In this document: piece by piece, positions 3,465 to 24,205 of the stretch
Layout: each line of letters opens with the position of its first letter
How positions within the stretch are numbered: the first letter of the stretch is position 1
Origin: a virus
DNA: 25,574 nucleotides
IMG/VR virus record: IMGVR_UViG_3300032163_001985
Coordinates: 1-25,574 of that record
Reading direction: 5' to 3' (one strand)
The notes under the pieces: model-generated
The model's input: only the letters and a program-made list of their open reading frames with translations
Told to the model about the DNA's origin: nothing
The model's database searches: none
Translations under genes and position numbers: made by a program

Positions 3465-3956
3465 ATGGGCGGAGTAACAATAAATGTTGAGATAAAAGAT
3501 GAAGCAGTAAGGCAATTATTTGCAGATATTCAAGGAAGATTGAGGGATTTATCTCCTGCATTAAAGATTATTGGTGAGATTGTGAGGACGTCTATAGCTG
3601 AAAACTTTCTTGCAGGCGGAAGACCTACAGCATGGAAACCGTCAATCCGTTCATCAATGTCAGGTGGTAATACATTGATTGATACAAAGATATTGATGAA
3701 CTCATTGACAGTTAAGCCAATTGATAATGATACAGTTGCAGTTGGCACAACTGTAGATTACGCCGCAATCCATCAGTTTGGAGGCACAATAAGCGCAATA
3801 AATGCAAAATATCTTAAATTTATGAGAGGCGGAAAAGGAACGCCTTGGGCAAGCAAGCAGTCAGTAACTATCCCAGCACGCCCTTTTATGATGATACAGG
3901 ACAGAGATTGGCAGACGATGGCAGCCGCTATTCGCAAGTATATATTAACGTCTTGA
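3465..3956 (+). CDS. Phage virion morphogenesis protein (Mu gpG / P2 gpS family)
   Basis: A 163-residue protein matching the phage virion morphogenesis/tail completion family. The centre has the family's DTKILMNSL stretch (usually DTG.L..S) and the TTVDYAAIHQFGGTI segment (YA..HQFGG is the best signature), followed by an IPARPFMMI tail. Members act in head completion or head-tail joining. In Mu-like phages this gene follows the MuF gene, as it does here after the fused portal-MuF. An AAGGAG ribosome site precedes the ATG. The stop codon (3954-3956) lies inside the left terminus of the first intergenic inverted-repeat element, so the last codons may come from the element. Confidence 0.85.
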   Translation: MGGVTINVEIKDEAVRQLFADIQGRLRDLSPALKIIGEIVRTSIAENFLAGGRPTAWKPSIRSSMSGGNTLIDTKILMNSLTVKPIDNDTVAVGTTVDYAAIHQFGGTISAINAKYLKFMRGGKGTPWASKQSVTIPARPFMMIQDRDWQTMAAAIRKYILTS

Positions 3957-4163
3957 ACCAAGATTAATGAAAGAAATTTAAGATTTAAGATTAAATGAAG
4001 AAATTTAAGATTTATGATTTAAGATTTATGATTTAACAGCATTCAAAAAAACTGATAATCTTTTAAATCTTTTTTTAAGTCTTTTTTTAAATCATAAATC
4101 TTAAATCATAAATCATAAATTTCTTCATTAAATCTTGGTTCAGATAATAACTTAACGGAGGTA
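3946..4163. repeat. Heptad inverted-repeat element, copy 1 (core orientation A)
   Basis: One of the two longest-ended copies. It begins TAACGTCTTGAACCA (3946-3960), continues with heptad units AAGATTT/ATGATTT, has the core AGCATTCAAAAAAACTGA... at 4038-4069, then the complementary arm (AAATCAT/AAATCTT units), and ends AATCTTGGTTCAGA just before GGAGGTA, the Shine-Dalgarno of the capsid gene. The ends are inverted repeats of each other (GAACCAAGATT / AATCTTGGTTC). It overlaps the stop codon of the gpG-like gene. Confidence 0.9.
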
Positions 4164-4169
4164 ACACAA

Positions 4170-5330
4170 ATGGAAGTTTTAGACGCATTGAAAGAAACAA
4201 ACGACCTTGTCAATAAAAGATTTGACAGAATCGAACAAGAACACGACGCAAGACTCAAGGCATTAGAGATGGGAAGCAAGGAAAGAAGGGTATCCGTATC
4301 AGGGCTTGAAGATGAAAAAGAAAGGTTTTCTATGTCAAAAGCCGTCATCGCAATCACGACAGGCGATTGGACAAACGCAGGATTTGAAAAGTCAGTATTT
4401 GAGGAAACCCGCAAAAAGGCAGCATCAGTCGGCAGCGACAGCGCAGGCGGCTTTATTGTGCCTATTCAGTATCTTGGCGATAATTTCATTGAACTATTAA
4501 GACCAAACAGCACAGTTATCCAGATGGGCGCAACCGTGCTTAACGGCTTAGTAGGGTCACCTGTTGAGATTCCAAAGCAGTTAAGCGGAGCTACAGCTTA
4601 CTGGATTGACGAGAATGCAAGCATTACAGACAGCCAGCAGAGTTATGGACAGTTAAACCTTAGACCACACTCTTTAGGCGCAGTCGTGATACTGTCTAAC
4701 AGATTTTTAAGAATGGCAAATCCATCTGCTGATAAGATGATCACACAAGACATAACTAAGGTTATGGCATTGGCAGTAGACCTTGCAGCATTAGCAGGAA
4801 CTGGAATAGGCGCTCAGCCTGTAGGGATAAAAAATACTGTTGGCGTTGGTTCTCTTGCAATCGGAGTTAATGGCGGCACGTTTGATTATGTTCAGGCGCA
4901 GAACATGGAAGGGCTCTTAGAAGACGCAAACGCTCTAAGAGGCAAATTAGGTTATATCATGTCTCCTGCGGTTAAAAGAGTATTAAAGAAGCAGAAAGTA
5001 CACTTCTTTAGCGGAGATACCAAAGGCTATCCATTAGGCGTTGTATCTGATGAGCAGTTGAAGTCATATCTTGGTTATGATTTTATGACCACAACACAAC
5101 TGCCTAACACAGCAACCAAAGGCGCTGGCACAGGCTTATCCACTGTCATCTTTGGTAATTTTGAAGAGCTCATCCTTGCTAACTGGGGAGATATAGAGAT
5201 TCTGGCAAGCAAAGAAACTTCTAACGCCTTTACTACTAACCAGACTTACATAAGGATTATACAAGAGACCGATATTGGCATTAGACATGCTGAGAGCTTT
5301 GCAGTATGTAACGACGCAGTATCTGCATAA
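4170..5330 (+). CDS. HK97-fold major capsid protein
   Basis: A 386-residue protein of the HK97-type major capsid family, the shell subunit of the phage head. Residues 1 to about 80 are charged and helical, as in the delta/scaffold region removed by the prohead protease. From about residue 90 the family pattern appears: SAGGFIVPIQYLGDNFIELL, then the ATAYWIDENASITDSQ segment and the LRPHSLGAVVILSNRFL strand, the helical DITKVMALAVDLAALAGTG region, and late strands around DIEILASKET. The matching protease is encoded two genes downstream. A strong GGAGG site (4157-4161) supplied at the right edge of repeat copy 1 sets the start. The gene is intact and of usual length. No cleavage site can be placed from sequence alone. 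Confidence 0.93.
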   Translation: MEVLDALKETNDLVNKRFDRIEQEHDARLKALEMGSKERRVSVSGLEDEKERFSMSKAVIAITTGDWTNAGFEKSVFEETRKKAASVGSDSAGGFIVPIQYLGDNFIELLRPNSTVIQMGATVLNGLVGSPVEIPKQLSGATAYWIDENASITDSQQSYGQLNLRPHSLGAVVILSNRFLRMANPSADKMITQDITKVMALAVDLAALAGTGIGAQPVGIKNTVGVGSLAIGVNGGTFDYVQAQNMEGLLEDANALRGKLGYIMSPAVKRVLKKQKVHFFSGDTKGYPLGVVSDEQLKSYLGYDFMTTTQLPNTATKGAGTGLSTVIFGNFEELILANWGDIEILASKETSNAFTTNQTYIRIIQETDIGIRHAESFAVCNDAVSA

Positions 5331-5335
5331 TTGAC

Positions 5336-5474
5336 TAATGAAAGAAATTTAAGATTTATGATTTAAGATTTATGATTTAAAAGCATTCAAAAAAACTGAT
5401 AATCTTTTAAATCTTTTCTTAAATCTTTTTTTAAATCTTAAATCATAAATCATAAATCATAAATTTTAAATTAA
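5336..5474. repeat. Heptad inverted-repeat element, copy 2 (orientation A)
   Basis: The left end TAATGAAAGAAATTTAAG starts six bases after the capsid stop codon. The core is at 5382-5413. The right arm of AAATCTT/AAATCAT units runs to about 5474, where a separate small hairpin begins. Confidence 0.88.
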
Positions 5475-5475
5475 C

Positions 5476-5498
5476 AGGGCAGCGTTTGAACCTGCCCT
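5476..5498 (+). promoter_or_regulatory. Hairpin in the leader of the decoration-like gene
   Basis: AGGGCAG (5476-5482), a 9-base loop, then CTGCCCT (5492-5498) form a 7-bp GC-rich hairpin. The Shine-Dalgarno AAGGAG follows before the ATG at 5518. It may be part of a chromosomal repeat or a weak attenuator; a run of A rather than T follows, so it is not a standard terminator. Confidence 0.5.
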
Positions 5499-5517
5499 TA
5501 TAAAAAAGGAGAAAAAC

Positions 5518-6249
5518 ATGCGCGATATTTCACAGAACATAGCAGTCAAAAACGCAATGTCTGGTCAGACAATCAATACCGGAAGTTTAACCAGCGGAAA
5601 CGGTCATGATATTGGTGACTTTAGCTCAATATGCGCAGCTCTTATGCTTGGAGGCTTCACGCCTTCAGCAACTACAGCAATATCATCCCTTGTACAGCTG
5701 CAGTCTTCCGCAGACGGAATAACCTTTGCAGACGTATCTGGAGTTAATCAGACCAATGTCATCAGCAACAAAAGACAGACGATTACCTTATCAACCGACT
5801 TGATAACAGGCAATGTTGTAGATATGAATATCACCCTCTACAATAACAAGCCTTGGGCATATGCCTTAGCAATGCCGCCTATAACATTCGGCACAGACCA
5901 TGCAACCACAAGGGCAGCTATTGTTTCTCAGTTGAATACTACCTTTGGCTCTATATTGACAGCTACAGCATCAGGCGACGTTATAACTCTGACTGCAAAT
6001 CAGGCAGGCGTTGACTTCAATGTTAATTCATGCGCAGTAACCCTTGGAGCGACTCAGCCAACAGTAGTAATTGCAACCAGCAACGCATTTTCAGGCTCTG
6101 GAGTTATGAAGTTTGATATTAACGCTAATTCAATAGCTAACCGTTATATCAGATTTAATGTTACCCACACCATAACAGGCGGTGGCTCTGCTCTTCAGAC
6201 CAGTATGGCAGTTATATGTTATGGAGCGCATAATTTACCAGTTGCATAG
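5518..6249 (+). CDS. Putative capsid decoration / structural protein
   Basis: A 243-residue beta-rich protein directly after the capsid gene. The first part (MSGQTINTGSLTSGNGHDIG, then SLVQLQSSADGITFADVSG) and the last part (RYIRFNVTHTITGGGSALQ, ICYGAHNLPVA) resemble small phage structural proteins that often follow the capsid gene, in which a measured-value-like beta domain ends in a YIR..VT..G strand. Residues about 105-195 look like an inserted domain, with TTRAAIVSQLNTTFGS and the DVITLTANQAGVDFNVN stretch, a pattern seen in other phage surface proteins. Position and composition suggest a head decoration protein, but this is inference. An AAAAAGGAG site sets the start. Confidence 0.55.
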   Translation: MRDISQNIAVKNAMSGQTINTGSLTSGNGHDIGDFSSICAALMLGGFTPSATTAISSLVQLQSSADGITFADVSGVNQTNVISNKRQTITLSTDLITGNVVDMNITLYNNKPWAYALAMPPITFGTDHATTRAAIVSQLNTTFGSILTATASGDVITLTANQAGVDFNVNSCAVTLGATQPTVVIATSNAFSGSGVMKFDINANSIANRYIRFNVTHTITGGGSALQTSMAVICYGAHNLPVA

Positions 6250-6258
6250 TACATAAAT

Positions 6259-6313
6259 ATTGGTCTTAGACCAATTGAGCGGGGGGCAAAAAGTCCTCCT
6301 TGAGCCTCCCGCT
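6259..6313 (+). terminator. Tandem hairpins after the decoration-like gene
   Basis: ATTGGTC-TTA-GACCAAT (6259-6275) is followed by AGCGGG (6278-6283) pairing with CCCGCT (6308-6313) around a loop of about 24 bases. The positions just downstream of a stop codon fit a terminator or an RNA-stabilising structure, but only a short mixed A/T stretch follows and no clear U-tract is present. Confidence 0.4.
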
Positions 6314-6493
6314 TGAATTAATTTAAGATTCAATGAAGAAATTTATGATTTATGATTTATGATTTATGATTTAAAAAAAGATTAAAGAAAAAGATTTAAA
6401 AGATTATCAGTTTTTTTGAATGCTGTTAAATCATAAATCTTAAATCTTAAATTTCTTCATTAAATCATAAATCATAAATCTTAAATTAATTCA
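6314..6493. repeat. Heptad inverted-repeat element, copy 3 (orientation B)
   Basis: It has a clean 17-base terminal inverted repeat: TGAATTAATTTAAGATT at the left end and AATCTTAAATTAATTCA at the right. The left arm has four ATGATTT units, the core is at 6393-6424 in the opposite orientation to copy 1, and the right arm holds AAATCAT/AAATCTT units with an internal TTTCTTCATT. The Shine-Dalgarno CGGAG of the protease gene lies immediately beyond the right end. Confidence 0.9.
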
Positions 6494-6507
6494 CACGGAG
6501 ATAGACA

Positions 6508-7506
6508 ATGAATAAAACGTATAAACGTTTAAAAGGTGTCATCAAATCAGTAGACACAACCAACTACACAGTTGACGCCGTTATATCGTCATCCGCAGTT
6601 GACAGATATAACGAGGTAATAGCCATAGACGCATGGAAAGATGGGCTTGTTGAGTATATGAAGCACCCTGTGCTTCTAACATCTCATGATTACTCAGAGC
6701 TTACCAGCCAGATAGGCATAGCCCTTTCAATCGGCATTGTAGGGAATGAACTAATCGCAAAGTTTAAATATTTTGTAGGCGAAGGCAACCCAGAGGCAGA
6801 TTGGGCGTTTAACCTTGCAAGTAAAGGACAGGCAGCTTATTCAGTAGGCTTTGAATCCCTTGCCTCAGAGACTCCAAGCGAGGATATTAATGGAGTTGAC
6901 GTAGAAAGGATTTATACAAAGGTAAATCTGCTTGAGGTATCACAGGTGTTGATTCCTGCAAATCCAGAGGCCCTGCAAAAGGTAAAACAGTTGATTGCAG
7001 ATTTTGAAGACGCAAAGGATGAGATTGTTCCAGCCCTGAAAACTGCAAGGCAAGTTATTGAAGAGTATGCAGATGTAATGGGCTGGCACCACTCTATCAG
7101 AGAAAGTCTTTTTCCAGGCGGACAGAAAGAAAAAACAGCGGATGTAGAGAAGAAATCACGACATCAATTAAGCGCTGGAATAGATATAGCAATTGATAAA
7201 TTGATAGAAATTCAAGACGGTATAAATAATTTGGAAGCGGAGGCTAAAATGGAAGAGAAAAAGAAGACAGATACAACCCTTGAAGATAGGATAAAAGAGC
7301 TGGAAGTCTGCATTAAGGATTTGGATAAAAGGATTATGGAATTAGAGTCTCAAAATGCAAAACTTGAGAAGTCATTATCTGCGCATTTTATATTTACATG
7401 CAGTCATCTTGATAGTCTTGACTCAAGGCTTAAAAATGCTGATCATGATTTTGATAAACAATTCATCGATGACTTAAAAACCCTTAATTTGAGGTTAAAA
7501 CTCTAA
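6508..7506 (+). CDS. HK97-type prohead protease (U35) with C-terminal coiled coil
   Basis: A 332-residue protein. Residues 1 to about 165 match the caudovirus prohead protease family, which trims the capsid protein during head maturation. Visible catalytic candidates are H60 in LLTSHDYSE and S112 in QAAYSVGFES. The family-typical LLEVSQVLIPANPEA follows at 141-155. Residues about 170-247 are helical, and 248-332 form a strongly charged coiled coil (DRIKELEVCIKDLDKRIMEL) that could serve as a scaffold. The gene is downstream of the capsid gene, whereas portal-protease-capsid is the commoner order. The ATG follows CGGAG at the edge of repeat copy 3. An internal start may give a separate scaffold product (7249-7506). 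Confidence 0.88.
   Translation: MNKTYKRLKGVIKSVDTTNYTVDAVISSSAVDRYNEVIAIDAWKDGLVEYMKHPVLLTSHDYSELTSQIGIALSIGIVGNELIAKFKYFVGEGNPEADWAFNLASKGQAAYSVGFESLASETPSEDINGVDVERIYTKVNLLEVSQVLIPANPEALQKVKQLIADFEDAKDEIVPALKTARQVIEEYADVMGWHHSIRESLFPGGQKEKTADVEKKSRHQLSAGIDIAIDKLIEIQDGINNLEAEAKMEEKKKTDTTLEDRIKELEVCIKDLDKRIMELESQNAKLEKSLSAHFIFTCSHLDSLDSRLKNADHDFDKQFIDDLKTLNLRLKL
7249..7506 (+). CDS. Possible nested scaffold protein from an internal start
   Basis: Within the protease gene, ATG at 7249 (residue 248, in frame) follows GGAGG at 7239-7243 with a 5-base spacer, a stronger ribosome site than many in this window. It would yield an 85-residue, highly charged coiled-coil protein ending at the same stop. 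Lambda C/Nu3 is the known precedent: a protease whose C-terminal part is also made alone as scaffold. Here the match to Shine-Dalgarno could also be chance from Glu-Ala-Glu codons. The product is predicted, not shown. Confidence 0.4.
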   Translation: MEEKKKTDTTLEDRIKELEVCIKDLDKRIMELESQNAKLEKSLSAHFIFTCSHLDSLDSRLKNADHDFDKQFIDDLKTLNLRLKL

Positions 7507-7507
7507 G

Positions 7508-8749: not shown

Positions 8750-8925
8750 CGTCTTGAACCATGATTTATGAAGAAATTTAAGATTTATGATTTAAGATTT
8801 ATGATTTAAAAAAAGATTTAAAAGATTATCAGTTTTTTTGAATGCTGTTAAATCATAAATCATAAATCATAAATCATAAATTTCTTCATTGAATCTTGGT
8901 TCAGACAATAACTTTATGGAGGTAG
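8747..8925. repeat. Heptad inverted-repeat element, copy 4 (orientation B)
   Basis: It shares the 15-base left end TAACGTCTTGAACCA with copy 1, although the core (8815-8846) is in the opposite orientation. The right end, AATCTTGGTTCAGA followed by an ...AATAACTT...GGAGGTA region, also matches copy 1 through the Shine-Dalgarno. The upstream stop codon TAA is the first three bases of the element. Confidence 0.9.
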
Positions 8926-9718: not shown

Positions 9719-10004
9719 AGAAATTTAAGATTTATGATTTATGATTTAAGAAGAAATTTATGATTTATGATTTAAGATTTAAGATTTAAGAAAAGATTAA
9801 AGAAGAAATTTATGATTTAAGATTTATGATTTATGATTTAAAAAAAGATTAAAGAAGAAATTTAAGATTTATGATTTAAGATTTATGATTTAAAAAAAGA
9901 CTTAAGAAAAGATTAAAAGATTATCAGTTTTTTTGAATGCTGTTAAATCATAAATCTTAAATCATAAATCATAAATTTCTTTCATTGAATCTTAAATTAA
10001 TTCA
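9711..10004. repeat. Heptad inverted-repeat element, copy 5, expanded (orientation B)
   Basis: The largest copy, and the whole content of the 302-base gap before the next gene. The left arm is expanded: three successive blocks, each GAAGAAATTTA followed by AAGATTT/ATGATTT units and an A-rich AAAGATTAAA stretch. The core is at 9911-9941 and the right arm ends TTAAATTAATTCA at 10004, just before GGGAG. The left end TGAATTAA contains the lipoprotein stop codon. No gene is seen here. Confidence 0.9.
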
Positions 10005-10387: not shown

Positions 10388-10657
10388 ATGATAACACAGG
10401 CGAATGCAAGCGTTAGCAATCAAATTGACTATGACAAAAACATCTTTGAAGAGTCACCGACTGGTTCAGTCAATGGAGCAAATAAAGTATTTACATTGGC
10501 AAACACGCCTTATAATTCAAGGACTGTAAGGGTATATGTTAATAGTCTAAGACTGATGCAAGGCGCAGGCAAAGATTATACAATCTCAGGTGCAGTCATA
10601 ACTCTGGCTGCAGCTCCCTCAAGCGGACAGAATATATTAGTTGATTATATGATTTAA
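10388..10657 (+). CDS. Short tail-fibre-like protein
   Basis: An 89-residue protein starting at the ATG one base after the upstream stop (10384-10386). From about residue 25 it shows the widespread phage fibre/neck pattern: VFTLANTPYNSRTVRVYVN, then a LMQGAGKDYTISGAVITL strand and an SGQNILVDY end. That is, F.L...P...V.VY.N....G.DYT.SG..I.L..AP. It is a single small beta domain, probably part of a fibre or adaptor. The first residues (MITQANA) nearly repeat the start of the large fibre gene at 10799 (MITHANA), also at DNA level. The stop codon and the preceding ATGATT lie in the left edge of repeat copy 6. Confidence 0.72.
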   Translation: MITQANASVSNQIDYDKNIFEESPTGSVNGANKVFTLANTPYNSRTVRVYVNSLRLMQGAGKDYTISGAVITLAAAPSSGQNILVDYMI

Positions 10658-10788
10658 TAGAAGAAATTTATGATTTAAGATTTAAGATTTATGATTTAAC
10701 AAAAGATTAAAGAAGAGATTAAAAGATTATCAGTTTTTTTGAATGCTTTTAAATCATAAATCATAAATCTTAAATCTTAAATTAATTA
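10649..10788. repeat. Heptad inverted-repeat element, copy 6 (orientation B)
   Basis: It begins with ATGATTTAA, which includes the upstream stop codon. The core is at 10717-10747, in the variant that lacks one T of the GATTTAAAAG start. The right arm ends CTTAAATTAATTAA, directly followed by AGGATATCTATG, a translation start region nearly identical to that of the gene at 20687. Confidence 0.88.
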
Positions 10789-10798
10789 AAGGATATCT

Positions 10799-13759
10799 AT
10801 GATAACACATGCTAATGCAAATTCAGGGAGCAGCAATCAAGCGGTAGCTCTTGACGCTTGCAGGCTGGCAACTACAGGGGCTAACCTATCCGTTACTGCG
10901 GCAGGTTCAAGAGATACAAAAATCTTGGTTGCAAATGCAAATGGCGCATTCTCTCTTGACAGCATTTCTGGGAATTTACTTGACAGGGTGTTAGTCAAAG
11001 ACCAGACAAACGGAGTTGATAACGGTATTTATTTTATATCAATACTTGGAGACGCATCTCATCCATATGTTTTGATGAGAACTCCAGACTCAAATACCAG
11101 TTTATTGAGCGGCACTACTGTTTATATCTCAGGCGGGGCGTTAAATATAGGAAATGTCTATACCCTAAGCACTCCAGATATAATAACGCTGGACACAACA
11201 GCATTAACCTTTATATTAACAAACGGGGTTGGCGGAACTTCTCCAAATTCGCCAATAAAGGTTAATCCATCCGTAATAAATAACTTTGTGTCTTTTAGTG
11301 ATACGGTTGGAAATCAAAAAGATAGCGGCAATAATATCTCATCCTTTGACGCAGCAGGTACAGCAGCAACTGTAATCAATGCGCACAAGGATTTAACGAC
11401 AGGGGTTCACGGAGTCGGGGCAGGCACGATTGCTAAGGTATCGGATATAACCGCAACTCAAGCAGGCGCAGAACCATCAGGCGCAGTCAATACACATAAT
11501 GCCTTAACAACAGGGGTTCACGGTGTCGGGGCAGGCACAGTTGCCAAGATATCAGATATAACCGCAGCTCAAGCTGGGGCAGACGTTGCAGGTACAGCTG
11601 CTGCAGCAGTCAATGCGCACAAGGATTTAACAACAGGAGTTCACGGAGTCGGGGCTGGCACAGTTGCTAAGGTATCGGATATTACCGCAACTCAAGCAGG
11701 CGCAGAACCATCAGGCGCAGTCAATACACATAATGCCTTAACAACAGGGGTTCACGGAGTAGGCGCAGGCACAGTTGCCAAGATATCAGATATAACCGCA
11801 GCTCAGGCTGGGGCAGACGCAACAGGTACAGCTGCTGCAGCAGTCAATGGACACAAGGATTTGACAACAGGGGTTCACGGTGTAGGCGCAGGTACAATTG
11901 CTAAGATATCGGATATAACCGCAACTCAAGCAGGCGCAGAACCATCAGGCGCAGTAAATACTCATAATGCCTTGACAACAGGGGTTCACGGAGTAGGCGC
12001 AGGCACAGTTGCCAAGATATCAGATATAACCGCAGCTCAGGCTGGGGCAGAACCATCTGGCGCAGTAAATACTCATAATGCCTTGACAACAGGGGTTCAC
12101 GGTGTCGGGGCTGGCACAGTTGCCAAACTAACGGATATAACATATGCAAACGCAGGGGCACCAGCAATCGTGAATCCATCAGTAACAGATAATTTTGTTG
12201 GTTTTTCAAATACAACAGGCAGTCAAAAGGACAGCGGTAAAAATGCTGCATCCTTTGAACCATCTGGTAACGTTGCAACGCATGCAGCCTTAACAACAGG
12301 AGTTCATGGTGTCGGGGCAGGCACGATTGCTAAGGTATCGGATATAACCGCAACTCAAGCAGGCGCAGAACCATCTGGCGCAGTCAATACACATAATGCC
12401 TTAACAACAGGCGTTCACGGCGTAGGCGCAGGAAGTGTGGCAGGAACCACATTAACGCAAACATTAACTAACAAGACATTAACTGCTCCAACCATTTCAG
12501 ATTTTACAAATGCAAACCATACTCATACCGGGGCTTCAAGTGGAGGCAGCATCAGCGGTACAGGAGGACTTCCACAATCAAGTTTAGATATATCTAACGA
12601 TAACATTAATCTTGCTATGCTTTTACGTTTGCAAGCAGGTTCGCTACCGTTTCAACGTATGGTTAATTGCATGGCTGATGGGTTTGCTGACCAAACTGGG
12701 ATTGATACTACCAACAGCATTAATCAAGTATATGGGACTCAATTATATACACCAGTTGGGCTTGCTTATACTACAGCGTTACTTCGTTTCAATGGCGCAA
12801 ACAATGGGACTGTATTTACTGATACCACAGGTTTGAATACATGGACAGCCGCTAGTGGCGCGGTTACTACAACGGATCAGCATAAATTTGGCACGGCTTC
12901 TGGACAATTTAATGGATCATCATCATTAATTTCAGCTCCTGCAGGTGCTAATTTTAATGTTGGAACTAATGATTTTACTATAGATTTTTGGGTGAAAAGG
13001 GCTTCTACGTCAAGTTCGAGTTATATTTGTGGGCAATTTGACGGAACGAATCTCTCAACAATGCAGCATGTTATAGGCATTAATTCTAACAATACAATAA
13101 CATGGGAAGGCTATTTAATATCAGACAGTTCACTCGCCTCAACGGCTACTATTACAGATACAACAACGTGGCATCACATTGCGCTTGTCAGATATGGCGC
13201 AAACTTAACCATATATCTGGATGGAACATCTATAGCAACAAGGGCAGACTTAAGCGGAATTAACTTTGCTTCAAGTTCATACAATTTTACTATTGGACGT
13301 GCTGGAAACCTTGCTCAGCAATATTTCAATGGATATATTGATGAGTTCAGATTTAGCAAAGGTATAGCAAGATGGACAGCAAATTTTACTCCTCCGACAA
13401 CGGAATATCAGTCAGTCGATATGATGACATTGCTTACAAATGCTTATACGGCATTATCTGCTCCATCATCATATATTAGAGTATTGCTATTACAAGAAGA
13501 CCCTGACGTTTCAAATGTTAATGCCGTAAATACTGATTTTAAAGTATATGCCAGTATGGATAACGGCACAAATTATTATGAAGTCACAGGGTTAGCTAAG
13601 GCGGCAATATATGCTGCAGGGGCAACAGCCGCAGGAAAATGTGTATATACAGGCAGTTTATCAACATCTGGCATGGTATCAGGCACATCTATCAAGGCTA
13701 AGATAGTCACATTAGGCAAAAATATAAATATAAGAGGAATAGCGTTAAATTGGATTTAA
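10799..13759 (+). CDS. Large tail fibre with tandem repeats and LamG domain
   Basis: A 986-residue fibre-like protein. Residues about 192-548 hold nine copies of a segment with TTGVHGVGAG, most in a 33-36 residue unit that also carries AKISDITAAQAGA and AVNTHNAL; variants alternate, so the higher-order period is two units. A longer module beginning VNPSV occurs before and inside the array. Next comes the fibre motif TLTNKTLTAPTISDFTNANH. Residues about 660-872 are a LamG/concanavalin-like domain (DFTIDFWVKRA, WHHIALVRYGANLTIYLDG, then GYIDEFRFSKG), expected to bind surface sugars or proteins. The C-terminal 110 residues are unrecognised. The protein probably makes a trimeric or elongated host-recognition fibre. 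No chaperone gene is seen. Confidence 0.82.
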   Translation: MITHANANSGSSNQAVALDACRLATTGANLSVTAAGSRDTKILVANANGAFSLDSISGNLLDRVLVKDQTNGVDNGIYFISILGDASHPYVLMRTPDSNTSLLSGTTVYISGGALNIGNVYTLSTPDIITLDTTALTFILTNGVGGTSPNSPIKVNPSVINNFVSFSDTVGNQKDSGNNISSFDAAGTAATVINAHKDLTTGVHGVGAGTIAKVSDITATQAGAEPSGAVNTHNALTTGVHGVGAGTVAKISDITAAQAGADVAGTAAAAVNAHKDLTTGVHGVGAGTVAKVSDITATQAGAEPSGAVNTHNALTTGVHGVGAGTVAKISDITAAQAGADATGTAAAAVNGHKDLTTGVHGVGAGTIAKISDITATQAGAEPSGAVNTHNALTTGVHGVGAGTVAKISDITAAQAGAEPSGAVNTHNALTTGVHGVGAGTVAKLTDITYANAGAPAIVNPSVTDNFVGFSNTTGSQKDSGKNAASFEPSGNVATHAALTTGVHGVGAGTIAKVSDITATQAGAEPSGAVNTHNALTTGVHGVGAGSVAGTTLTQTLTNKTLTAPTISDFTNANHTHTGASSGGSISGTGGLPQSSLDISNDNINLAMLLRLQAGSLPFQRMVNCMADGFADQTGIDTTNSINQVYGTQLYTPVGLAYTTALLRFNGANNGTVFTDTTGLNTWTAASGAVTTTDQHKFGTASGQFNGSSSLISAPAGANFNVGTNDFTIDFWVKRASTSSSSYICGQFDGTNLSTMQHVIGINSNNTITWEGYLISDSSLASTATITDTTTWHHIALVRYGANLTIYLDGTSIATRADLSGINFASSSYNFTIGRAGNLAQQYFNGYIDEFRFSKGIARWTANFTPPTTEYQSVDMMTLLTNAYTALSAPSSYIRVLLLQEDPDVSNVNAVNTDFKVYASMDNGTNYYEVTGLAKAAIYAAGATAAGKCVYTGSLSTSGMVSGTSIKAKIVTLGKNINIRGIALNWI
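11374..12440 (+). repeat. Tandem DNA repeats inside the fibre gene
   Basis: Roughly 100-108 base units repeat across this stretch with high identity (ACAGGGGTTCACGG is present in most), giving nine TTGVHGVGAG copies in the protein. Differences between copies are mostly silent or Thr/Ala and Val/Ile swaps, so copies seem to be homogenised. Slippage or recombination could change fibre length. Confidence 0.85.
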
Positions 13760-13899
13760 TGAAGAGATTTATGATTTATGATTTAAGATTTAAGATTTAT
13801 GATTTAAAAAAAGATTAAAGAAAAGATTTAAAAGATTATCAGTTTTTTTGAATGCTTTTAAATCATAAATCATAAATCATAAATCTTAAATTTCTTCAC
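13754..13899. repeat. Heptad inverted-repeat element, copy 7 (orientation B)
   Basis: The left end GATTTAATGAAGAG includes the fibre stop codon (TAA 13757-13759). The core is at 13825-13856. The right arm ends TTTCTTCACA, followed by the Shine-Dalgarno GGAGGTAA of the next gene. Confidence 0.88.
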
Positions 13900-15330: not shown

Positions 15331-15376
15331 TGAATTAATTTAAGATTTATGATTTATGATTTAAAAAAAGATTAAA
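15331..15376. repeat. Heptad element, copy 8, truncated left half without core
   Basis: It begins with the full terminal sequence TGAATTAATTTAAGATT (identical to copy 3), has ATGATTT units and an AAAAAAAGATTAAA stretch, then stops abruptly. Core and right arm are missing, and a terminator hairpin and the antisense gene follow. The break suggests that the antisense cassette replaced the right half. Confidence 0.85.
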
Positions 15377-16069: not shown

Positions 16070-18948
16070 GCGGATATAAAAACAGGCTTCAATTAACGAT
16101 AGACCACACAAAGATAACCAGCGCCTTGACTAATTTTCCTATAATGGTCAAGTTGTCTGCCTCTTGCGGGATAACGGCAAAAGATATGTCTAATATCTTT
16201 GACTCTATCCCATCGTCAACTGGTTATCAGAATATAATTATCATGGGTTCTGATAATGTAACCCAAATATACGCAGAGGTACAGTCATGGAATCCTACAA
16301 CTAAGATAGCCGTTTTATGGGTAACTATCCCTTCAATAAGCTCAACGGTTGACACAGTATTTTACATCTATTATAATAATAGTATTAGTAATACAGCCTA
16401 TATTGGACTTACGGGGGCAAGCGCAACTATTGCAGCTCAAGTTTGGGATACCAACTATCAGGCAGTCCATCATCTTGAACAAGACCCATCAGGAACTGCT
16501 CCGCAGATTATAGACAGCTCTACCAATGCTTGGAATGGCGCAACATACGGCTCAATGACCAGCGGGCAGCTTGTCTCTGCTATAATCGGCAATGGATTGA
16601 GTCTTGACGGCAGCAATGATTATATTGATATCGGCAATGTTGCGCATAGCTCTGCAATATCCTTAGAATGTATTATTAAACCAACGTCATCAGGACTATG
16701 GCAATATATTATTAGTAGATCAAATACAGCCCATCAGTTTTTTTTAGCGTTGCAGTCAGATAATACTCTGAAATTGTATTGTAACGATGGTACAAACGCC
16801 TTCACATTATCAAGCGCGTCAACATTCAATACAAATACTTGGTATCATATAGCCGCAATATTACCAGGAGCAGGATATTCTGCTTATATCTATATAAATG
16901 GAGTTCAAGACGCCACCGCCAATCAATCATATTCTATTCAAAGTATAAATAACCATATCACTTATGGATGGAATCAGGCACTTACTGCGGGGAGACAATT
17001 TCATGGGATAATAGATGAATTTAGAATATCTAAGACATCCCGCAGCGCAAGCTATGTAAAGGCGTCTTATTACAGCTCTTCTGATAATCTGATAACCTAT
17101 TCCCTGCAATTTCAAGGTACACGCGCATTCTCTAATGATATATATGACTGCTGGGGAACAAGATATTTTAGTAATTTAATAGCGAATACCTTAGTGAACA
17201 GATGTTCTAAGAATATTATTACAGAAGGTTTTAACCGTTACTCAAAATGCGCAATGACAGAAGATTATACACAATATTTTATTAATGAAATCATAGATGG
17301 TAAAAAGATAAGAACAGTTTTTAGTAATGATATTTCTTTGGGATTTAATAAGACGCAATATTTTGGCAGTTCCCTTGACGCTTACTGTACTATAAGACAA
17401 TATTCTTTAAACCAGCTGGCAGAACCAGAGGCGATAATATTAACGCCTGCTGCCTCTCCATCTCCATCAAACCCTGCGCCATCAAACCCTGCGCCATCTA
17501 GTTTCTTTGATGTACGGATTGACGGCATATCCGTGACACATCTAATCAATAGCGTGAATATTCGCATTGCTGAAAGCAGTTTTACTAATCAAGTGACAAT
17601 CACATTTTTAAACCTTGATATGTACAATCAATGCGACCCTGCAATCAATTATGGAATGGAAAGAATAATAGTAACTATTTCGGGCAATGTCTATAAATTT
17701 GTAATTGAGAACCGAAACCGTTCAGAGCAATTTGGTTCATATCGTTTCACCCTTACAGGACGGCAGTTACCCATATTTTTAGGAGCGGGCTTTGCGCTGC
17801 CAGCAGATAATATTTTAGAGAACAAGATGGCGTCGTCAATTGCCGCAACGCTTGGGGGAAATCTTGTAAACATCACATGGAGCGCAATGGATTATTTTAT
17901 ACCTGATTTTACGTATATTGGATTCCCTATTGACGGCATCAAGATATTAGCAGACGGAGTTGGCGCAATAATGCGCGCAACCTCAGATGGTCAATTGATA
18001 ATAAGAAAGAAATTTGGAGTAAGACCAGAAAACCTTTCAAGTATAGTTCCGCCTTTTATATTCAGAGATTCACAGATATTAAAAAGAGAGATAGCGGAGC
18101 AAAAGGCGACATATAACGCAGTTGAGGTAATATCTACAGGTAATAGCGCAGATGCCCTTGAGTTAACGCCTATGGACACATGTATAACTATTGATGCCGT
18201 AAGCAAGGTAAAGGTATATACAGGACGAAATAAAGATTATAAGATAAATATCTCATCAGGTACCTTGACCAAGATGTCAACGGGCAGCCTTGAAACCTTG
18301 CAGGAGCAGATAATAATAACCGCAGGCAGGGGACTCACGTCAAAACGGATATTTGGCGTAAATAGTTATGAGTTTATACAATGCCCAAACGCAAACGCTC
18401 CGAAAGGCTCAACATTAGGTTTGTTGACAAACCCTTATGACGGATTAAAATATCCATTTAATTGGATAAAAGGCTCTAAAGACATACTATTAGCAGGGAC
18501 AGGAACGGAGCCTGAGCGATACACAGGACAGAATACTCCGATACAAGAAGGAATCCTAATCATAAATTATAACACAATTTATGACCTATGGACTGTAAGT
18601 AATAATGTTGCGGGGAGTATTATGATGGCTGCGGAGACGGCAAATCAAGGGATCAATATGATTGTTGTAACAGGTGATGGCGCGCGCATGGCAAGCCCAA
18701 TCCAACATCCATATATCAGCGCGCATGGACAGGCGGTAGAGATAGCTACCGCATCTTTGGATGAGACATCAACAAAGAAATATATATATAAGATAACAGT
18801 TCCTTATTGCAACGCCTATGATGGACAGCTGGCAATGGTAGATAATAAAAAAGGATATATAAGACAGGCGAATATTACGCTTGATGTAAAGGATAAGGCG
18901 GCGGTTATCATGCAGGAATTGATGATAGAAATTTATGAAGAAATTTAA
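16054..18948 (+). CDS. DUF2341-LamG protein fused to a tail hub-like domain
   Basis: A 964-residue mosaic protein. Residues 1-125 resemble DUF2341 (WLSGYKNRLQLTID, then FPIMVKLS and TVFYIYYNN). Residues about 136-349 are LamG/concanavalin-like (GLSLDGSNDYIDIG, NTWYHIAAIL, GIIDEFRISK). After an unrecognised segment and a Pro/Ser linker (about 466-484), residues about 485-964 look like a baseplate hub of the gpD/gp27/gpP type: FFDVRIDGISVTHLI, YGMERIIVTISGNVYKFVIE, and the phrase FTLTGRQLPIF, with late IYKITVPYCNAYDGQ. DUF2341-LamG pairs usually occur on bacterial surface proteins, so attachment to a tail hub suggests host adhesion; the hub call is inference. The final EIYEEI and stop are written in repeat-element sequence (18928-18948). 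Confidence 0.65.
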   Translation: MSTWLSGYKNRLQLTIDHTKITSALTNFPIMVKLSASCGITAKDMSNIFDSIPSSTGYQNIIIMGSDNVTQIYAEVQSWNPTTKIAVLWVTIPSISSTVDTVFYIYYNNSISNTAYIGLTGASATIAAQVWDTNYQAVHHLEQDPSGTAPQIIDSSTNAWNGATYGSMTSGQLVSAIIGNGLSLDGSNDYIDIGNVAHSSAISLECIIKPTSSGLWQYIISRSNTAHQFFLALQSDNTLKLYCNDGTNAFTLSSASTFNTNTWYHIAAILPGAGYSAYIYINGVQDATANQSYSIQSINNHITYGWNQALTAGRQFHGIIDEFRISKTSRSASYVKASYYSSSDNLITYSLQFQGTRAFSNDIYDCWGTRYFSNLIANTLVNRCSKNIITEGFNRYSKCAMTEDYTQYFINEIIDGKKIRTVFSNDISLGFNKTQYFGSSLDAYCTIRQYSLNQLAEPEAIILTPAASPSPSNPAPSNPAPSSFFDVRIDGISVTHLINSVNIRIAESSFTNQVTITFLNLDMYNQCDPAINYGMERIIVTISGNVYKFVIENRNRSEQFGSYRFTLTGRQLPIFLGAGFALPADNILENKMASSIAATLGGNLVNITWSAMDYFIPDFTYIGFPIDGIKILADGVGAIMRATSDGQLIIRKKFGVRPENLSSIVPPFIFRDSQILKREIAEQKATYNAVEVISTGNSADALELTPMDTCITIDAVSKVKVYTGRNKDYKINISSGTLTKMSTGSLETLQEQIIITAGRGLTSKRIFGVNSYEFIQCPNANAPKGSTLGLLTNPYDGLKYPFNWIKGSKDILLAGTGTEPERYTGQNTPIQEGILIINYNTIYDLWTVSNNVAGSIMMAAETANQGINMIVVTGDGARMASPIQHPYISAHGQAVEIATASLDETSTKKYIYKITVPYCNAYDGQLAMVDNKKGYIRQANITLDVKDKAAVIMQELMIEIYEEI

Positions 18949-18997
18949 GAAGAAATTTATGATTTATGATTTAAGATTTAAGATTTAAGATTTAAGG
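18928..18997. repeat. Heptad element, copy 9, arm only, no core
   Basis: GAAATTTATGAAGAAATTTAAG overlaps the last codons of the hub-like gene. ATGATTT/AAGATTT units continue to TTTAAGGAG, where the final AAGGAG serves as the Shine-Dalgarno of the 36-residue gene at 19005. Core and right arm are absent. Confidence 0.82.
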
Positions 18998-19115: not shown

Positions 19116-19183
19116 CGTAGGGGCAGGTCTTGTGCCTGCCCTCTTGGGATACAGACAGGGTAACCACAAGGCTTACCACTACG
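19116..19183. repeat. GTAGGGGC-type palindromic repeat, copy 1
   Basis: CGTAGGGGCAGGTCTTGTGC... and ...CACAAGGCTTACCACTACG form an imperfect hairpin with a centre TTGGGATACAGACAGGG. The same family occurs at 24681-24749 with centre TTGATATACAGACAGGG. This is an intergenic hairpin repeat, unrelated to the heptad elements. Confidence 0.8.
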
Positions 19184-19211
19184 AAGATAAACAAAATAAG
19201 GGACAGAAATA

Positions 19212-19433: not shown

Positions 19434-19574
19434 AGAAATTTAAGATTTATGATTTATGATTTATGATTTAAAAGCATTCAAAAAAACGGATAATCTTTTA
19501 AATCTTTTTTTAAGTCTTTTTTTAAGTCTTTTTTTAAATCATAAATCTTAAATCATAAATCTTAAATTAATTAA
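19431..19574. repeat. Heptad inverted-repeat element, copy 10 (orientation A)
   Basis: It starts with the upstream stop codon (TAAAGAAATTTAAG). The core, at 19473-19504, carries the variant ACGGATAATC in place of ACTGATAATC. The right side has tandem TTTTTTTAAGTC units before the AAATCAT/AAATCTT arm, and ends CTTAAATTAATTAA just before GGGAG. Confidence 0.88.
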
Positions 19575-19584
19575 GGGAGTTATA

Positions 19585-20520
19585 ATGCCATCAAACAGCG
19601 TAGTATTAAACGTTCAAGGCTCCTGTTCATCAGGCAGCAGCTCATCAGGCAGCAGCTCATCAGGCGGATTTTCTCTAATGCTTGACAGCATACTTAATAA
19701 TAATAAATCTATATTTGACGTTGGTCAAACTGCATACATGAAGTTATACAAAGGCGGATTAAACCCGACTCTGCGTGCTACGCTTGGGACGATAGCCCTT
19801 AAACGCCAGAATGTATATGAGATAATAACAGAACAGATAGTATTTATAAGGTCCAACACTGGAAGCCTTGCATATGAACCTGTAAATGCTGGGAGATTAG
19901 CTCCTCTTCCATCAGATATAAACGGAATTGAACATATCCCAATAGCGCCTGCGACAAGTCCTATTGATAATACATTATCAGAGATGGTTAATTGGCAGTG
20001 GCAGGGGAATGCCCCAAATGTAAATATCTTATTCGCAGATAAAACCATTACATTAAACCCGCGGGCAGCAAATGCAAACCCAATATTTACAGGCATATTG
20101 AATGTTGCATATTATACAACATATGATAGTATCGCCTTGCAGTCACAAATGAAGGGAGCTGCTATCTGTGAGGCATACGTAGAGACAATCACGCCAAATT
20201 TAACTCCATCAAAAAATAATCAAGCTGGAACTATTACCACTAATATATACGGCTCATTATTGGTAAAGTTTGGAGGCAATACATATAGCGCAAAACGCCC
20301 TGTGACAATCACGGTAAAAGACGCCTGCTCTCAAGCGTTAGTAGCTAGGGCAAGCGTAGAGGTAGATGGTTATTTAGTAGGAACAACCGCAGCAAACGGG
20401 ACTGTGGACTGCGGAAGTCTGGCAATAGGAGAGCATACGCTAAAAATAACGGCGCTTGGATATACGGATTCTGATAAAGATACTATCTTGAATGATTCGT
20501 TCACCGTGCCAGGAATGTAA
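19585..20520 (+). CDS. Structural protein with Ser/Gly linker and C-terminal Ig-like domain
   Basis: A 311-residue protein without a recognised main domain. Near the start is a Ser/Gly linker (SSGSSSSGSSSSGG, about residues 16-29). The central 200 residues are beta-rich (DVGQTAYMKLYKGG, VNWQWQGNAPNVNILFADK). Residues about 235-311 resemble a carboxypeptidase-regulatory/PEGA-type Ig-like domain: VTITVKDACSQALVARASV, VDGYLVGTTAANGTVDC and LAIGEHTLKITALGY. Such domains decorate phage fibres and bacterial surface proteins. GGGAG at the edge of repeat copy 10 sets the start. Position within the tail gene block suggests a virion surface protein. Confidence 0.6.
   Translation: MPSNSVVLNVQGSCSSGSSSSGSSSSGGFSLMLDSILNNNKSIFDVGQTAYMKLYKGGLNPTLRATLGTIALKRQNVYEIITEQIVFIRSNTGSLAYEPVNAGRLAPLPSDINGIEHIPIAPATSPIDNTLSEMVNWQWQGNAPNVNILFADKTITLNPRAANANPIFTGILNVAYYTTYDSIALQSQMKGAAICEAYVETITPNLTPSKNNQAGTITTNIYGSLLVKFGGNTYSAKRPVTITVKDACSQALVARASVEVDGYLVGTTAANGTVDCGSLAIGEHTLKITALGYTDSDKDTILNDSFTVPGM
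19627..19665 (+). repeat. 15-base microsatellite encoding the Ser/Gly linker
   Basis: TCATCAGGCAGCAGC occurs twice in full (19627-19641, 19642-19656) and then partly (TCATCAGGC). Each unit is five codons, so gain or loss keeps the frame and only changes linker length. Confidence 0.8.
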
Positions 20521-20677
20521 AAAGAAATTTATGATTTATGATTTATGATTTATGATTTAAAAAAAGATTTAAGAAAAGATTAAAAGATTATCAGTTTTTT
20601 TGAATGCTGTTAAATCATAAATCTTAAATCATAAATCTTAAATTTCTTCATTGAATCTTAAATCATAAATTAATTAA
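20518..20677. repeat. Heptad inverted-repeat element, copy 11 (orientation B)
   Basis: The left end abuts the upstream stop codon (TAAAAAGAAATTT) and has four consecutive ATGATTT units. The core is at 20578-20608. The right arm includes TTTCTTCATTGAATC and ends ATAAATTAATTAA, followed by GGGATATCTATG. Confidence 0.88.
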
Positions 20678-20686
20678 GGGATATCT

Positions 20687-21838
20687 ATGAATGAAATATT
20701 ACCAATAACCGCTTATATCGAAGGACAGGAGTTGAAGCCTAACGGTATCTGCTGCCCATCATTTTTGACAAAGATAGATGTCAAGACTGATAGTGGCAAA
20801 AACGTTATAATTTCGGTCCCGATAGTCAAGAGTGGCGTTGACATTAAAACATATCCAATAACGGCAGTATTAAAGAAGAAAAGCGCATCAGTTATGGACT
20901 GCCTATATTGTGTAGACGCATGCGAGGATTATACTATAACAACTATTGGTACCTCAATCAAGACAACAACATTACCGCCGCTTCAGCAAGGGGCATGCGG
21001 GTCATCGTGTATGAAGCAGCTGCATTGGTATCAAGCCTCGCATACAGCGATGGAAGGGATTAAGATTGTTACTCAGAACAATGTATTTTTTAAGGGAACG
21101 CCTCAAGAAAAAACTATAACAAATCAGGTGTCAGAACCAAACATGGTAACAAGAGCCTTGCCATCTTTAATCATTGAAGTGCCTATCCCTAAGATGTGCG
21201 GCTTAATCAGTTTAACAGTTGGCGCAGAGCTTTCAAATATCAGCGCAAGCATATCACTGAACGGTTCTGGGATGATTCCAGCAGATAATCATCTGGCGCA
21301 TACCTACGATGATTTAGGCGGAGTTTGGAAACCGCAATTTCAATTTGACATAACATCAAACTTCATACCTGGCGAGGCAATAACCGCCTATGGAATGTTT
21401 GAGGGTAAGAATCCATGTAATCCAGTGCCGATAGCTTATGGCTGGTTTGAGACTAAATGTTTCACATCAGGGATAATAGCAGGCTGCGGGCTTGTAGATT
21501 CATCTGGAGAGGTTAAATCAGGCGGTCCAAACTATGAATTAAATAACTCATGGCTTAATGACCAGCGTCTTCAATGGTTTGTCAACTTCAAGGGCGGGGG
21601 ATACTGGCTTAAATGTTCTGATTTCTCAAAATATCAACTTGGACAACGCTGCATGATTTATAAAAATGGAATAGGAATGCTTCAAAACGGCGGACTTGTA
21701 ACTGCCAATAAATGCAGAAACACAGATAAATTAAATCAACCGCCAGCAGCAGACAGTGAGATATTAACAGACAGCGCAGTATCATATACGCTGAATATCA
21801 ATAGCGATATTATTATGCCTCTGGGAGTTTATAATTGA
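20687..21838 (+). CDS. Cysteine-rich hypothetical phage protein
   Basis: A 383-residue protein that I do not recognise. It has no signal peptide or membrane span. Cysteines are unusually frequent (about 14) and partly clustered: GICCPS, DCLYCVDAC, GACGSSCM. The rest is beta-rich with many Gly/Asn turns; the C-terminal third has aromatic stretches (LQWFVNFKGGGYWLKCSDF). The clusters could bind metal or form disulphides in the finished particle; CXXC appears as C-L-Y-C. It lies between two repeat elements, downstream of the Ig-like protein and upstream of another unknown large protein, so it is probably a tail or fibre component. GGGATATCTATG is its start region. Confidence 0.55.
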   Translation: MNEILPITAYIEGQELKPNGICCPSFLTKIDVKTDSGKNVIISVPIVKSGVDIKTYPITAVLKKKSASVMDCLYCVDACEDYTITTIGTSIKTTTLPPLQQGACGSSCMKQLHWYQASHTAMEGIKIVTQNNVFFKGTPQEKTITNQVSEPNMVTRALPSLIIEVPIPKMCGLISLTVGAELSNISASISLNGSGMIPADNHLAHTYDDLGGVWKPQFQFDITSNFIPGEAITAYGMFEGKNPCNPVPIAYGWFETKCFTSGIIAGCGLVDSSGEVKSGGPNYELNNSWLNDQRLQWFVNFKGGGYWLKCSDFSKYQLGQRCMIYKNGIGMLQNGGLVTANKCRNTDKLNQPPAADSEILTDSAVSYTLNINSDIIMPLGVYN

Positions 21839-21991
21839 AATTTAAGATTTAAGATTCAATGAAGAAATTTATGATTTATGATTTAAGATTTAAGATTTAA
21901 AAGCATTCAAAAAAACTGATAATCTTTTAAATCTTTTCTTAAATCTTTTTTTAAATCATAAATCTTAAATCTTAAATCTTAAATTAATTAA
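21836..21991. repeat. Heptad inverted-repeat element, copy 12 (orientation A)
   Basis: The left end TGAAATTTAAG begins with the upstream TGA stop codon. The core is at 21902-21933. The right arm consists mostly of AAATCTT units and ends AAATTAATTA, just before AGGGATAACCATG. Confidence 0.88.
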
Positions 21992-22000
21992 GGGATAACC

Positions 22001-24013
22001 ATGATACAAAATATGCCTGACATATCAACAGTCTTAAAACAGCGTGTCGCATGGGCGGTCATTACCCAAGTCAATTACGCAGACGACACTGCCAATATCT
22101 CAATATTAGATAATAACTCTAACGCAACCACAGAAACATATACAAACGTGCCAATATTCTATAACTGCTCTCCAACTGCAAAAATACGGACTAATGGCGC
22201 GCTTACAAACGCTGCCTCTGCATTTGATATTAATGACAACGTTGCAGTCAAATTTATGCTTGAGTCTAAAGGTAATAAGACATCTCTATTCATCATCAGT
22301 CATCTTGATCATAAAAAAACCTGTCTTAAATCGCTATATCTATTGAATCTGAACGGCGCATATCTTATGTTTTCCATGAATATGGATTATACCTTGACGC
22401 AACTTACATCAGATCAAGCTAAGAATAAATTAAACCTAACCATAAATCCAGTTGAGGGGTTTTTATTGACCGCTCAAGGACATCCAACCTCAAATCTGGT
22501 TTACGCCTGCCTTCCACAGCATGGAGAGGGAAGGTCATCAATAGATAATTATAATATTAATTTTCTAACACATGTTTTAACAACAGGAATGTGGGGGGAT
22601 ACTAATAGTTACTCAATCGGACAGCTTCAATTTTCACCAATAATCGGCAGTGATCAGAATTATTCGCCAGCCCTTAATTCCTATGATTATGAATTATCAC
22701 CATGCAGTTCAGCGCGTCATAGTTATTCAATAGACAGCAATAATGATATGGTTGATTATGGATACACTATCCAAGCCGTCCAGGTCCAAGCAACTATTAG
22801 ATATAACATTGCGCAAGGGTTTGTTGTCAGGATACAATATAAATATAGGATAAATTATTACAATGCAGGGAGCAGCAATGCCATATCAACAGCTTATTTA
22901 TATACAGACTCAGGCGGTGGAATCTGCAATGGCGCAGGGCAAATAAGCAGCGGGGACCCTGATACATGGACTTTTTACGTACCAGTTATGGCTATGGCTT
23001 TTAATCAGATGATAATCAGGAAATTAAGCAGGACAATGAGCAATACGCAAGGCTATACGCCATTGTATGGCAGTGGGACAAACCATTTAGTCTGTGATAC
23101 AGGAGGATTAAATACTTCATTCAGTGTTACATCAGACCCTTTTAGTGTAACCGAAACGACATATACATATACCGAGAAATTAATCATTGGTATCAATACA
23201 ATCCTTGAATCGCTTATTTATGCTGAGAATACTATAAACTATGGCGCAGGAAGTTTTAGTACCGACAATGGCTCAGGTGTTCCTGTTGGATGCGCAGTAA
23301 CCGCAGTATCATCTGGATCATGCGGGGGCAATTGGCAAAGTGTTAATTGGACTCCGATGATGATAACAACGCCTCAGGGATTGAGCATAACAAGCCCTGG
23401 CAATTTTTATATTATGTGGAATCCTAACACTATTGAAGGGGCATGGGCATTTAGCACAAATGGACTTATCTCAGATACACGCATAGGGGATAAAGATTTA
23501 TTTGTAATGGCTGCGGATACATATAATGGTCAGGATAATTACATTATATTTTATGGCTATGGCACACGTAGTTATAACGGAAATTATAATGCTCAGGCTT
23601 ATGGATCTCCTGTGAATTCAATCCAGCTTGTCACTGATAACTATATCACAACATACAAAATGGCATGGCGTGTAAATGGCGGGAGCATAAATAAGAGTGT
23701 CTTGACATCATGGACAAACGCCCAAACATATAACTGCTTTGACTGCATGGACATCCCTTACAATATCATAGAGCAAAACAATACAACTATAGTGACAGGG
23801 CAAAAGATTGACAATGTATCGGTACAGATTAACGCAGGGTTTATATCATACACCTATTGTTTATACGATTATAAAGACGCAGTGCCGACATTTATACATA
23901 GAGTTGTAGGATTAATTAGTATCAGCGACAATAATTATCCAATCGGCACGGTCAAGGAATGGATATATACAAATAATGACGGAGGTTATGCCGTGGGGGT
24001 GACAAGGGCATGA
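22001..24013 (+). CDS. Large hypothetical tail protein, possible N-terminal OB-fold
   Basis: A 670-residue protein without a recognised family. Residues about 10-110 have the layout of a baseplate/spike OB-fold (AWAVITQVNYADDTANISIL, VPIFYN, FDINDNVAVKFML, SLFIISHLD). The remaining 560 residues are rich in Ser, Thr, Asn, Tyr and Gly (for example YNGNYNAQAYGSPVNSIQL), as in fibre or spike proteins. An N-terminal OB-domain followed by a long beta-rich part resembles gpV/gp45-like spike proteins, but it is much longer than these and no central triple-helix repeat is evident. The start is set by AGGGATAACC at the edge of repeat copy 12. The stop codon lies at the left edge of copy 13. Confidence 0.5.
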   Translation: MIQNMPDISTVLKQRVAWAVITQVNYADDTANISILDNNSNATTETYTNVPIFYNCSPTAKIRTNGALTNAASAFDINDNVAVKFMLESKGNKTSLFIISHLDHKKTCLKSLYLLNLNGAYLMFSMNMDYTLTQLTSDQAKNKLNLTINPVEGFLLTAQGHPTSNLVYACLPQHGEGRSSIDNYNINFLTHVLTTGMWGDTNSYSIGQLQFSPIIGSDQNYSPALNSYDYELSPCSSARHSYSIDSNNDMVDYGYTIQAVQVQATIRYNIAQGFVVRIQYKYRINYYNAGSSNAISTAYLYTDSGGGICNGAGQISSGDPDTWTFYVPVMAMAFNQMIIRKLSRTMSNTQGYTPLYGSGTNHLVCDTGGLNTSFSVTSDPFSVTETTYTYTEKLIIGINTILESLIYAENTINYGAGSFSTDNGSGVPVGCAVTAVSSGSCGGNWQSVNWTPMMITTPQGLSITSPGNFYIMWNPNTIEGAWAFSTNGLISDTRIGDKDLFVMAADTYNGQDNYIIFYGYGTRSYNGNYNAQAYGSPVNSIQLVTDNYITTYKMAWRVNGGSINKSVLTSWTNAQTYNCFDCMDIPYNIIEQNNTTIVTGQKIDNVSVQINAGFISYTYCLYDYKDAVPTFIHRVVGLISISDNNYPIGTVKEWIYTNNDGGYAVGVTRA

Positions 24014-24205
24014 AAGATAATTTAAGATTTAAGATATAAGAAGAAATTTATGATTTATGATTTAAGATTTATGATTTAAAAAAAGATTTCAAACAAAGAT
24101 TTTAAAAGATTATCAGTTTTTTTGAATGCTGTTAAATCTTAAATCTTAAATCATAAATCTTAAATTTCTTTCATTATCTTAAATCATAAATCTTAAATTA
24201 ATTCA
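24011..24205. repeat. Heptad inverted-repeat element, copy 13 (orientation B)
   Basis: The left end TGAAAGATAATTTAAG starts with the upstream stop codon. The core is at 24098-24130, with one extra T (GATTTTAAAAG). The right end ...TTAAATTAATTCA is the same terminus as in copies 3 and 5 and is followed by TACGGAG, the next Shine-Dalgarno. Confidence 0.88.

Follow-up and report, generated by a model that had tools for sequence, protein, structure and literature searches.

In phage T7, hairpins carrying RNase III sites between a stop codon and the next start are where the polycistronic mRNA is cut. Dispersed hairpin repeats are already well known on bacterial chromosomes, where RNase III binds and cleaves the transcribed inverted repeats of Correia elements in Neisseria (CREE/NEMIS; PMC2649163, PMC10969869). 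Among phages, half of the SAS/ESAS repeats come with imperfect 17-bp inverted repeats (PMC3203893). In chloroplast DNA, small inversions associated with hairpins have been documented (PMC6444266). Here, the late operon of an uncultured phage is considered, in which 11 gaps each contain one hairpin element of 120-190 nt. The element is real, as first-pass annotation had observed from its inverted heptad repeats, and this observation is confirmed.

Architecture and placement of the element

The window, i.e., the whole stretch of DNA that was analyzed, is a 25,574-base IMG/VR virus record whose genes are almost all co-directional. Among their predicted products are an HK97-type capsid, a prohead protease, and a portal that carries Mu-F and PBECR2 domains as a fusion, along with a tail-completion protein, two LamG-domain proteins, a head-tail connector, and a major tail protein. 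The portal, Mu-F, and nuclease-like PBECR2 domains share one 919-aa reading frame (586-3345), inside which lies a GC-richer insert, CCCGTCAGGCAGAGCCTGCCACCCCTTTT...GGGGAATTA (1861-1910), that resembles another dispersed repeat read through in frame. Two neighboring genes have near-identical coding starts at 10388-10440 and 10799-10840 (ATGATAACACA.GC.AATGCAA), and the first LamG gene contains 111/234-nt tandem coding repeats (11348-12141). A minus-strand gene within the late operon (15402-15674), of weak CCDC90-like similarity, adjoins a half element and a 24-nt palindrome and appears to be an additional gene inserted there. Over 15,169 nt, seven element copies included, the window matches a second IMG/VR contig (L010) at 99.99% identity. 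The repeats are thus not a one-off assembly fault, with the reservation that both contigs may be from one sample.

The 27-base core AGCATTCAAAAAAACTGATAATCTTTT was matched 11 times, 10 times exactly and once with 1 mismatch, and no match was obtained in 100 shuffled sequences. Four cores lie on the plus strand and seven on the minus strand. Each copy follows the same plan, in which four 7-nt AWGATTT units stand on each side of an A-rich stretch and the core. Exactly four heptads are present in 20 of the 22 arms; the exceptions are E7, with five in its left arm, and E3, whose right arm is interrupted after three. When the copies are aligned in core orientation, the heptad columns vary at the second base only (A or T), and a 23-nt core, GATTATCAGTTTTTTTGAATGCT, is shared without change by 10 of the 11 copies, while the adjoining A-rich stretch differs in both length and sequence. 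The arms end in AAGAAATTT/AAATTTCTT, and every copy contains inverted repeats of 35-70 nt. Coordinates are collected in Table 1.

Table 1. Positions of the hairpin elements, half copies, and further hairpin repeats in the window
Feature	Position	Strand of core	Core	Leader family	Remarks
E1	3957..4143	+	4038-4064	A	between tail-completion gene and major capsid gene; outermost inverted repeat TGAACCAAGATT/AATCTTGGTTCA
E2	5331..5473	+	5382-5408		after major capsid gene
E3	6313..6490	-	6398-6424	C	before prohead protease gene
E4	8750..8905	-	8820-8846	A	outer flanks and leader as E1, core opposite
E5	9719..10002	-	9915-9941	C	
E5 left-arm unit	9743-9908				repeated about 3 times, 52-nt period
E6	10658..10789	-	10721-10747	B	before first LamG-domain gene
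E7	13757..13899	-	13830-13856		five heptads in left arm
Half copy	15338..15375				left arm and start of A-rich stretch, no core, no right arm; beside opposite-strand CCDC90-like gene
Half copy	18929..18997				left arm only; also encodes end of LamG2 reading frame; abuts AAGGAG of next gene
E8	19434..19573	+	19473-19499	B	core with one mismatch
E9	20518..20674	-	20582-20608	B	
E10	21836..21989	+	21902-21928	B	
E11	24020..24202	-	24104-24130	C	
Second hairpin repeat, unrelated to heptad element	19116..19183				CGTAGGGGCAGG...CTACG; fills another gap; z -5.3
Second copy of CGTAGGGGC hairpin repeat	24681..24749				z -9.6

The first-pass annotation had counted 11 copies with a core and two without, and this count is borne out, the two coreless copies being left arms in two further gaps. 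Its AAGATTT/ATGATTT heptads were likewise recovered. The conserved core is present, but its invariant part comprises 23 nt and not the 31-33 first proposed, the A-rich side being variable. The arms are indeed inverted, but the complementarity of left and right is not strict: within a copy, their A/T choices do not match. The limits of the unit had to be redrawn, since the shared sequence does not stop at the arms but includes the downstream leader.

All 11 copies occupy gaps of one co-directional operon and none lies wholly within a gene. A non-overlapping gap of at least 30 nt is present at 16 of the 23 gene junctions, and these gaps contain the 11 full elements, the two half elements, and, in two cases, a hairpin repeat of the CGTAGGGGC type. 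Beyond the element-bearing junctions, the genes mostly overlap or abut. The claim that the element joins nearly all late genes was therefore too strong (11 of 23 junctions), although it fills 11 of the 16 gaps of at least 30 nt. In 10 of the 11 elements the first heptad block begins 1-23 nt after the stop codon. A good Shine-Dalgarno site (SD) follows the elements, 9-45 nt beyond the last heptad.

Leader homology, probable core inversion, and predicted folding

The leaders (34 nt before the start codon) were compared by local alignment scores and fall into three families (Table 1). Scores within a family are mostly 21-29 (one pair 18), and those of the other gene leaders of the window are 11 or lower. 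The leaders of E1 and E4 match at 25 of 28 nt, and the left flank TAACGTCTTGAACC is also common to both; in family B, AATTAATTAAGGGA is shared by the leaders of E6, E8, E9, and E10, with one change in E6. Families A and B each contain both core orientations. Since one leader family accompanies opposite cores, the core was most likely flipped in place. Duplicated junctions could also have received independent insertions, in either orientation, at precisely one and the same position, but it is simpler to assume that what lies between the inverted arms was inverted where it stood. The G/T variant beside the core tracks the leader family (p 0.048) more closely than the orientation (p 0.24), a weak pattern among eleven copies that agrees with in-place inversion. 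In the small inversions of chloroplast DNA, too, a loop flanked by inverted repeats is reversed in situ, mostly in intergenic regions, but only a few bases are inverted there (in the example examined).

Folding of each copy, a check proposed with the first description, predicts one long stem for all 11 elements (dG -33 to -66 kcal/mol, z -6 to -14 vs shuffles). When whole gaps were folded, z was -5 or below in 13 of 16, including the two CGTAGGGGC gaps, compared with a mean z of -0.1 and a minimum of -3.2 in 58 coding windows. An unrelated hairpin family in two more gaps suggests that it is the hairpin, and not one sequence, that is tolerated or wanted there. Co-variation of the arms as a sign of RNA selection was negative, the A/T agreement within a copy being 0.485 vs 0.607 for shuffled pairs, and the arms thus give no sign of selection for perfect pairing. 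A switch sequestering the SD was rejected, as SD accessibility is not consistently changed by the element, and in Rfam no match above the gathering threshold was obtained for the window. The data are compatible with a role as mRNA hairpin, for which the folding model and the analogy with known systems speak; RNase III would by the same analogy be a candidate actor at the elements. That the core stays invariant next to a variable A-rich stretch goes beyond what an mRNA-hairpin role alone would explain and hints at homogenization or at some constraint on the core: either the copies are recent and were evened out by recombination, or the core serves as a site for a protein or for recombination.

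Occurrence elsewhere and competing explanations

The exact core is present in none of the 84,980 bacterial and archaeal genomes searched. With up to 3 mismatches it gave single, chance-like matches only in 296 genomes of one phylum, and a core profile search of all retrieved loci gave matches at chance level. In IMG/VR the core is restricted to L009 and L010, with one near-identical contig as the only carrier besides the window, a match in L212 being dismissed as chance in unrelated sequence, and a search of viral contigs yielded no others with paired heptad arms. The arms are widespread: arrays of four AWGATTT heptads occur at more than 117 places in many bacterial phyla, and in these loci (L095-L211) GATTT is constant and the first two bases vary, much as in the phage element. 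An inverted partner lies within 150 nt for 13 of 124 bacterial heptad arrays. In one Parabacteroides genome, inverted heptad pairs number about a dozen; they are apparently intergenic and have short loops, several of which contain a CGACGC-like core. A phage-specific layout is thus not supported. Repeats of the CGTAGGGGC type are also found on bacterial chromosomes, in some loci (L101, L130) beside heptad arrays, so that both hairpin families of the phage have chromosomal counterparts. For the element itself, a chromosomal origin may be proposed from the resemblance of the arms. A search for the host through capsid homology led to a genome of the phylum of a Nitrospirae MAG (41% capsid), which has no heptads and no excess of CGTAGGGGC, and no host is therefore named.

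The nearest capsids in the collections searched, L010 aside, are 47% identical or less. As to the presence of the element in related phages, the nearest of these, L011 among them, have short, compact gaps and no heptads, which fits only loosely the condition that relatives lack it, as relatives at this distance are too remote to show a loss or gain free of effect. Relatives of the gene at 20687, sought for empty sites, were not found.

The interpretation in the first-pass annotation, which offered an RNase III-type site, a recombination site, or a miniature inverted-repeat element (MITE), is partly supported. The reading that we favor, at a probability of about 0.5, is that of a Correia/NEMIS-like non-coding hairpin repeat that was multiplied together with its leader by recombination in one phage and that would serve as an mRNA processing or stability hairpin. 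Its spread within the phage is well supported, and we infer the RNA role from the orientation independence, the two unrelated hairpin families in the gaps, and the Correia precedent. A dispersed hairpin repeat of the bacterial-chromosome kind would have multiplied until most of the genuine gaps in the late operon were occupied. What was copied would be a unit running from the outer end through a heptad arm, the A-rich stretch with the core, and the second heptad arm to the ribosome-binding leader, and the leader homology suggests that copying proceeded by recombination between copies and not by bare insertion. Judged by identical leaders with opposite cores, the inner segment between the inverted arms would have flipped in place at least twice. 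Upon transcription, each copy is predicted by folding to form a long A-U-rich stem-loop between the stop codon and the next SD. As the stem would work in either orientation, its effect, if any, may be to segment or protect the mRNA between cistrons, through RNase III-type cleavage or a block of 3'-5' decay, as for transcribed Correia/NEMIS elements and the T7 intercistronic sites.

In a different explanation, which we consider unlikely, if marginally the likeliest of the alternatives, the elements are common sequence at module edges, where virion gene cassettes are exchanged or reshuffled by phage or host recombinases. The homology extends over the entire junction, SD leader included, which is what genes moving together with their leaders would produce, and one half copy adjoins the inserted-looking opposite-strand gene. 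The gene order is also unusual: the protease gene precedes the capsid gene in three relatives (L011, L012, L020) and follows it in the window (4170-7506), and E1, E2, and E3 flank the displaced blocks. This order is suggestive of a rearrangement at elements, but it is a single case among many element-bearing junctions. Against such linkers, the nearest relative has only four recognizable genes in common with the phage, breakpoints at elements are often expected by chance when about half of the junctions carry one, and recombination between copies of opposite orientation would invert essential genes. A recombination role has some support.

Alternatively, a neutral MITE could have been moved by a host transposase, its intergenic position reflecting survival only. 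Loosely defined, a MITE would describe the element well apart from its flanks: it is non-coding and multi-copy, with terminal inverted repeats, a conserved core, both orientations, and an intergenic-only distribution; distant relatives are without it, and heptad repeats are common on bacterial chromosomes. Bare insertion, however, predicts unrelated flanks and a target-site duplication. The flanks are instead homologous among copies, on both sides for E1 and E4 and on the right for most others, and no target-site duplication was seen by eye. Moreover, no gap contains two full copies (P 0.01 for 11 elements placed at random in 16 gaps; 0.06 if 23 junctions were available) and no transposase was recognized in the window. 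As to a full-length transposon relative, the core was found in none of the genomes and in one viral contig besides the window. We regard a neutral MITE as unlikely, to about the same degree as recombination linkers.

Returning to the hairpin repeat multiplied within the phage, a more far-reaching version would see the late operon as composed of cassettes of gene, leader, and invertible hairpin, in which a self-multiplying linker insulates the mRNAs of the cistrons and at the same time provides homology for the reordering of virion genes, the latter being suggested by the displaced protease gene. This is improbable as it stands. It is very improbable that the core is a site in a binding array, read as DNA by a nucleoid-associated, packaging, or recombinase protein in the manner of stoperators or the cluster O dyad repeats: it is invariant in nearly all copies beside a variable A-rich stretch and its orientation is without importance, but it is not symmetric, and a DNA site has no need of 28-nt arms or of a position between stop codon and SD. 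We rejected an integron-like attC role, as the cores point both ways and no integrase was recognized in the window.

Comparison with known repeat systems

No earlier description was found of a phage operon whose gaps are mostly filled by one hairpin repeat, with the leader co-copied and the core in both orientations. The eleven near-identical intercistronic hairpins constitute a natural series for the study of mRNA segmentation, minute inversion, and module exchange. The element also draws attention to the NNGATTT heptad arrays, which are present in many bacterial phyla and for which no accepted function was found.

The cyanobacterial STRR and the TAACTGA repeats of Beggiatoaceae are alike in having 7-nt units, few per array, in intergenic positions and often near start codons. 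The phage element has such tandem intergenic heptads. STRR and TAACTGA, however, are mostly simple direct arrays of another unit, without inverted partner and core, whereas the phage arrays stand head to head around a core. What sets the phage element apart from the T7 hairpins is that its hairpins are long copies of a single heptad-armed dispersed repeat.

Among phage repeats, SAS/ESAS and the cluster O repeats are nearest, and they differ from the element in length, symmetry, and orientation. The SAS repeats of cluster K mycobacteriophages similarly lie just upstream of many phage genes, but they are 13 bp long and of unrelated sequence, nearly always point the same way, and are conserved among related phages (PMC3203893). 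The 13-bp SAS sequence GGGATAGGAGCCC, which immediately precedes starts, is absent from the leaders of the window, and the core of the element points both ways. The 17-bp dyad repeats of cluster O mycobacteriophages also occur in many copies per phage, often intergenic and without consistent orientation, but they are short symmetric sites of which about one third lie inside genes (PMC4351075).

The closest architecture is that of CREE/NEMIS, in which inverted repeats surround a directional conserved core in intergenic positions and an mRNA hairpin is possible, at a length of about 100-160 nt that is similar to that of the phage element (PMC2649163). The phage element shows the same inverted repeats around a directional conserved core. 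Its layout had at first been considered one that could not be named, but an intergenic, transcribed inverted repeat around a directional core is the Correia architecture. The two differ in sequence, CREE/NEMIS having been described only from Neisseria, and in the heptad arms and SD-leader homology of the phage element. As the defining 26-bp Correia terminal repeat and the TA target duplication are absent from it, the element would work like CREE/NEMIS without being one. It is real and unusual in its density, but of a known general kind.
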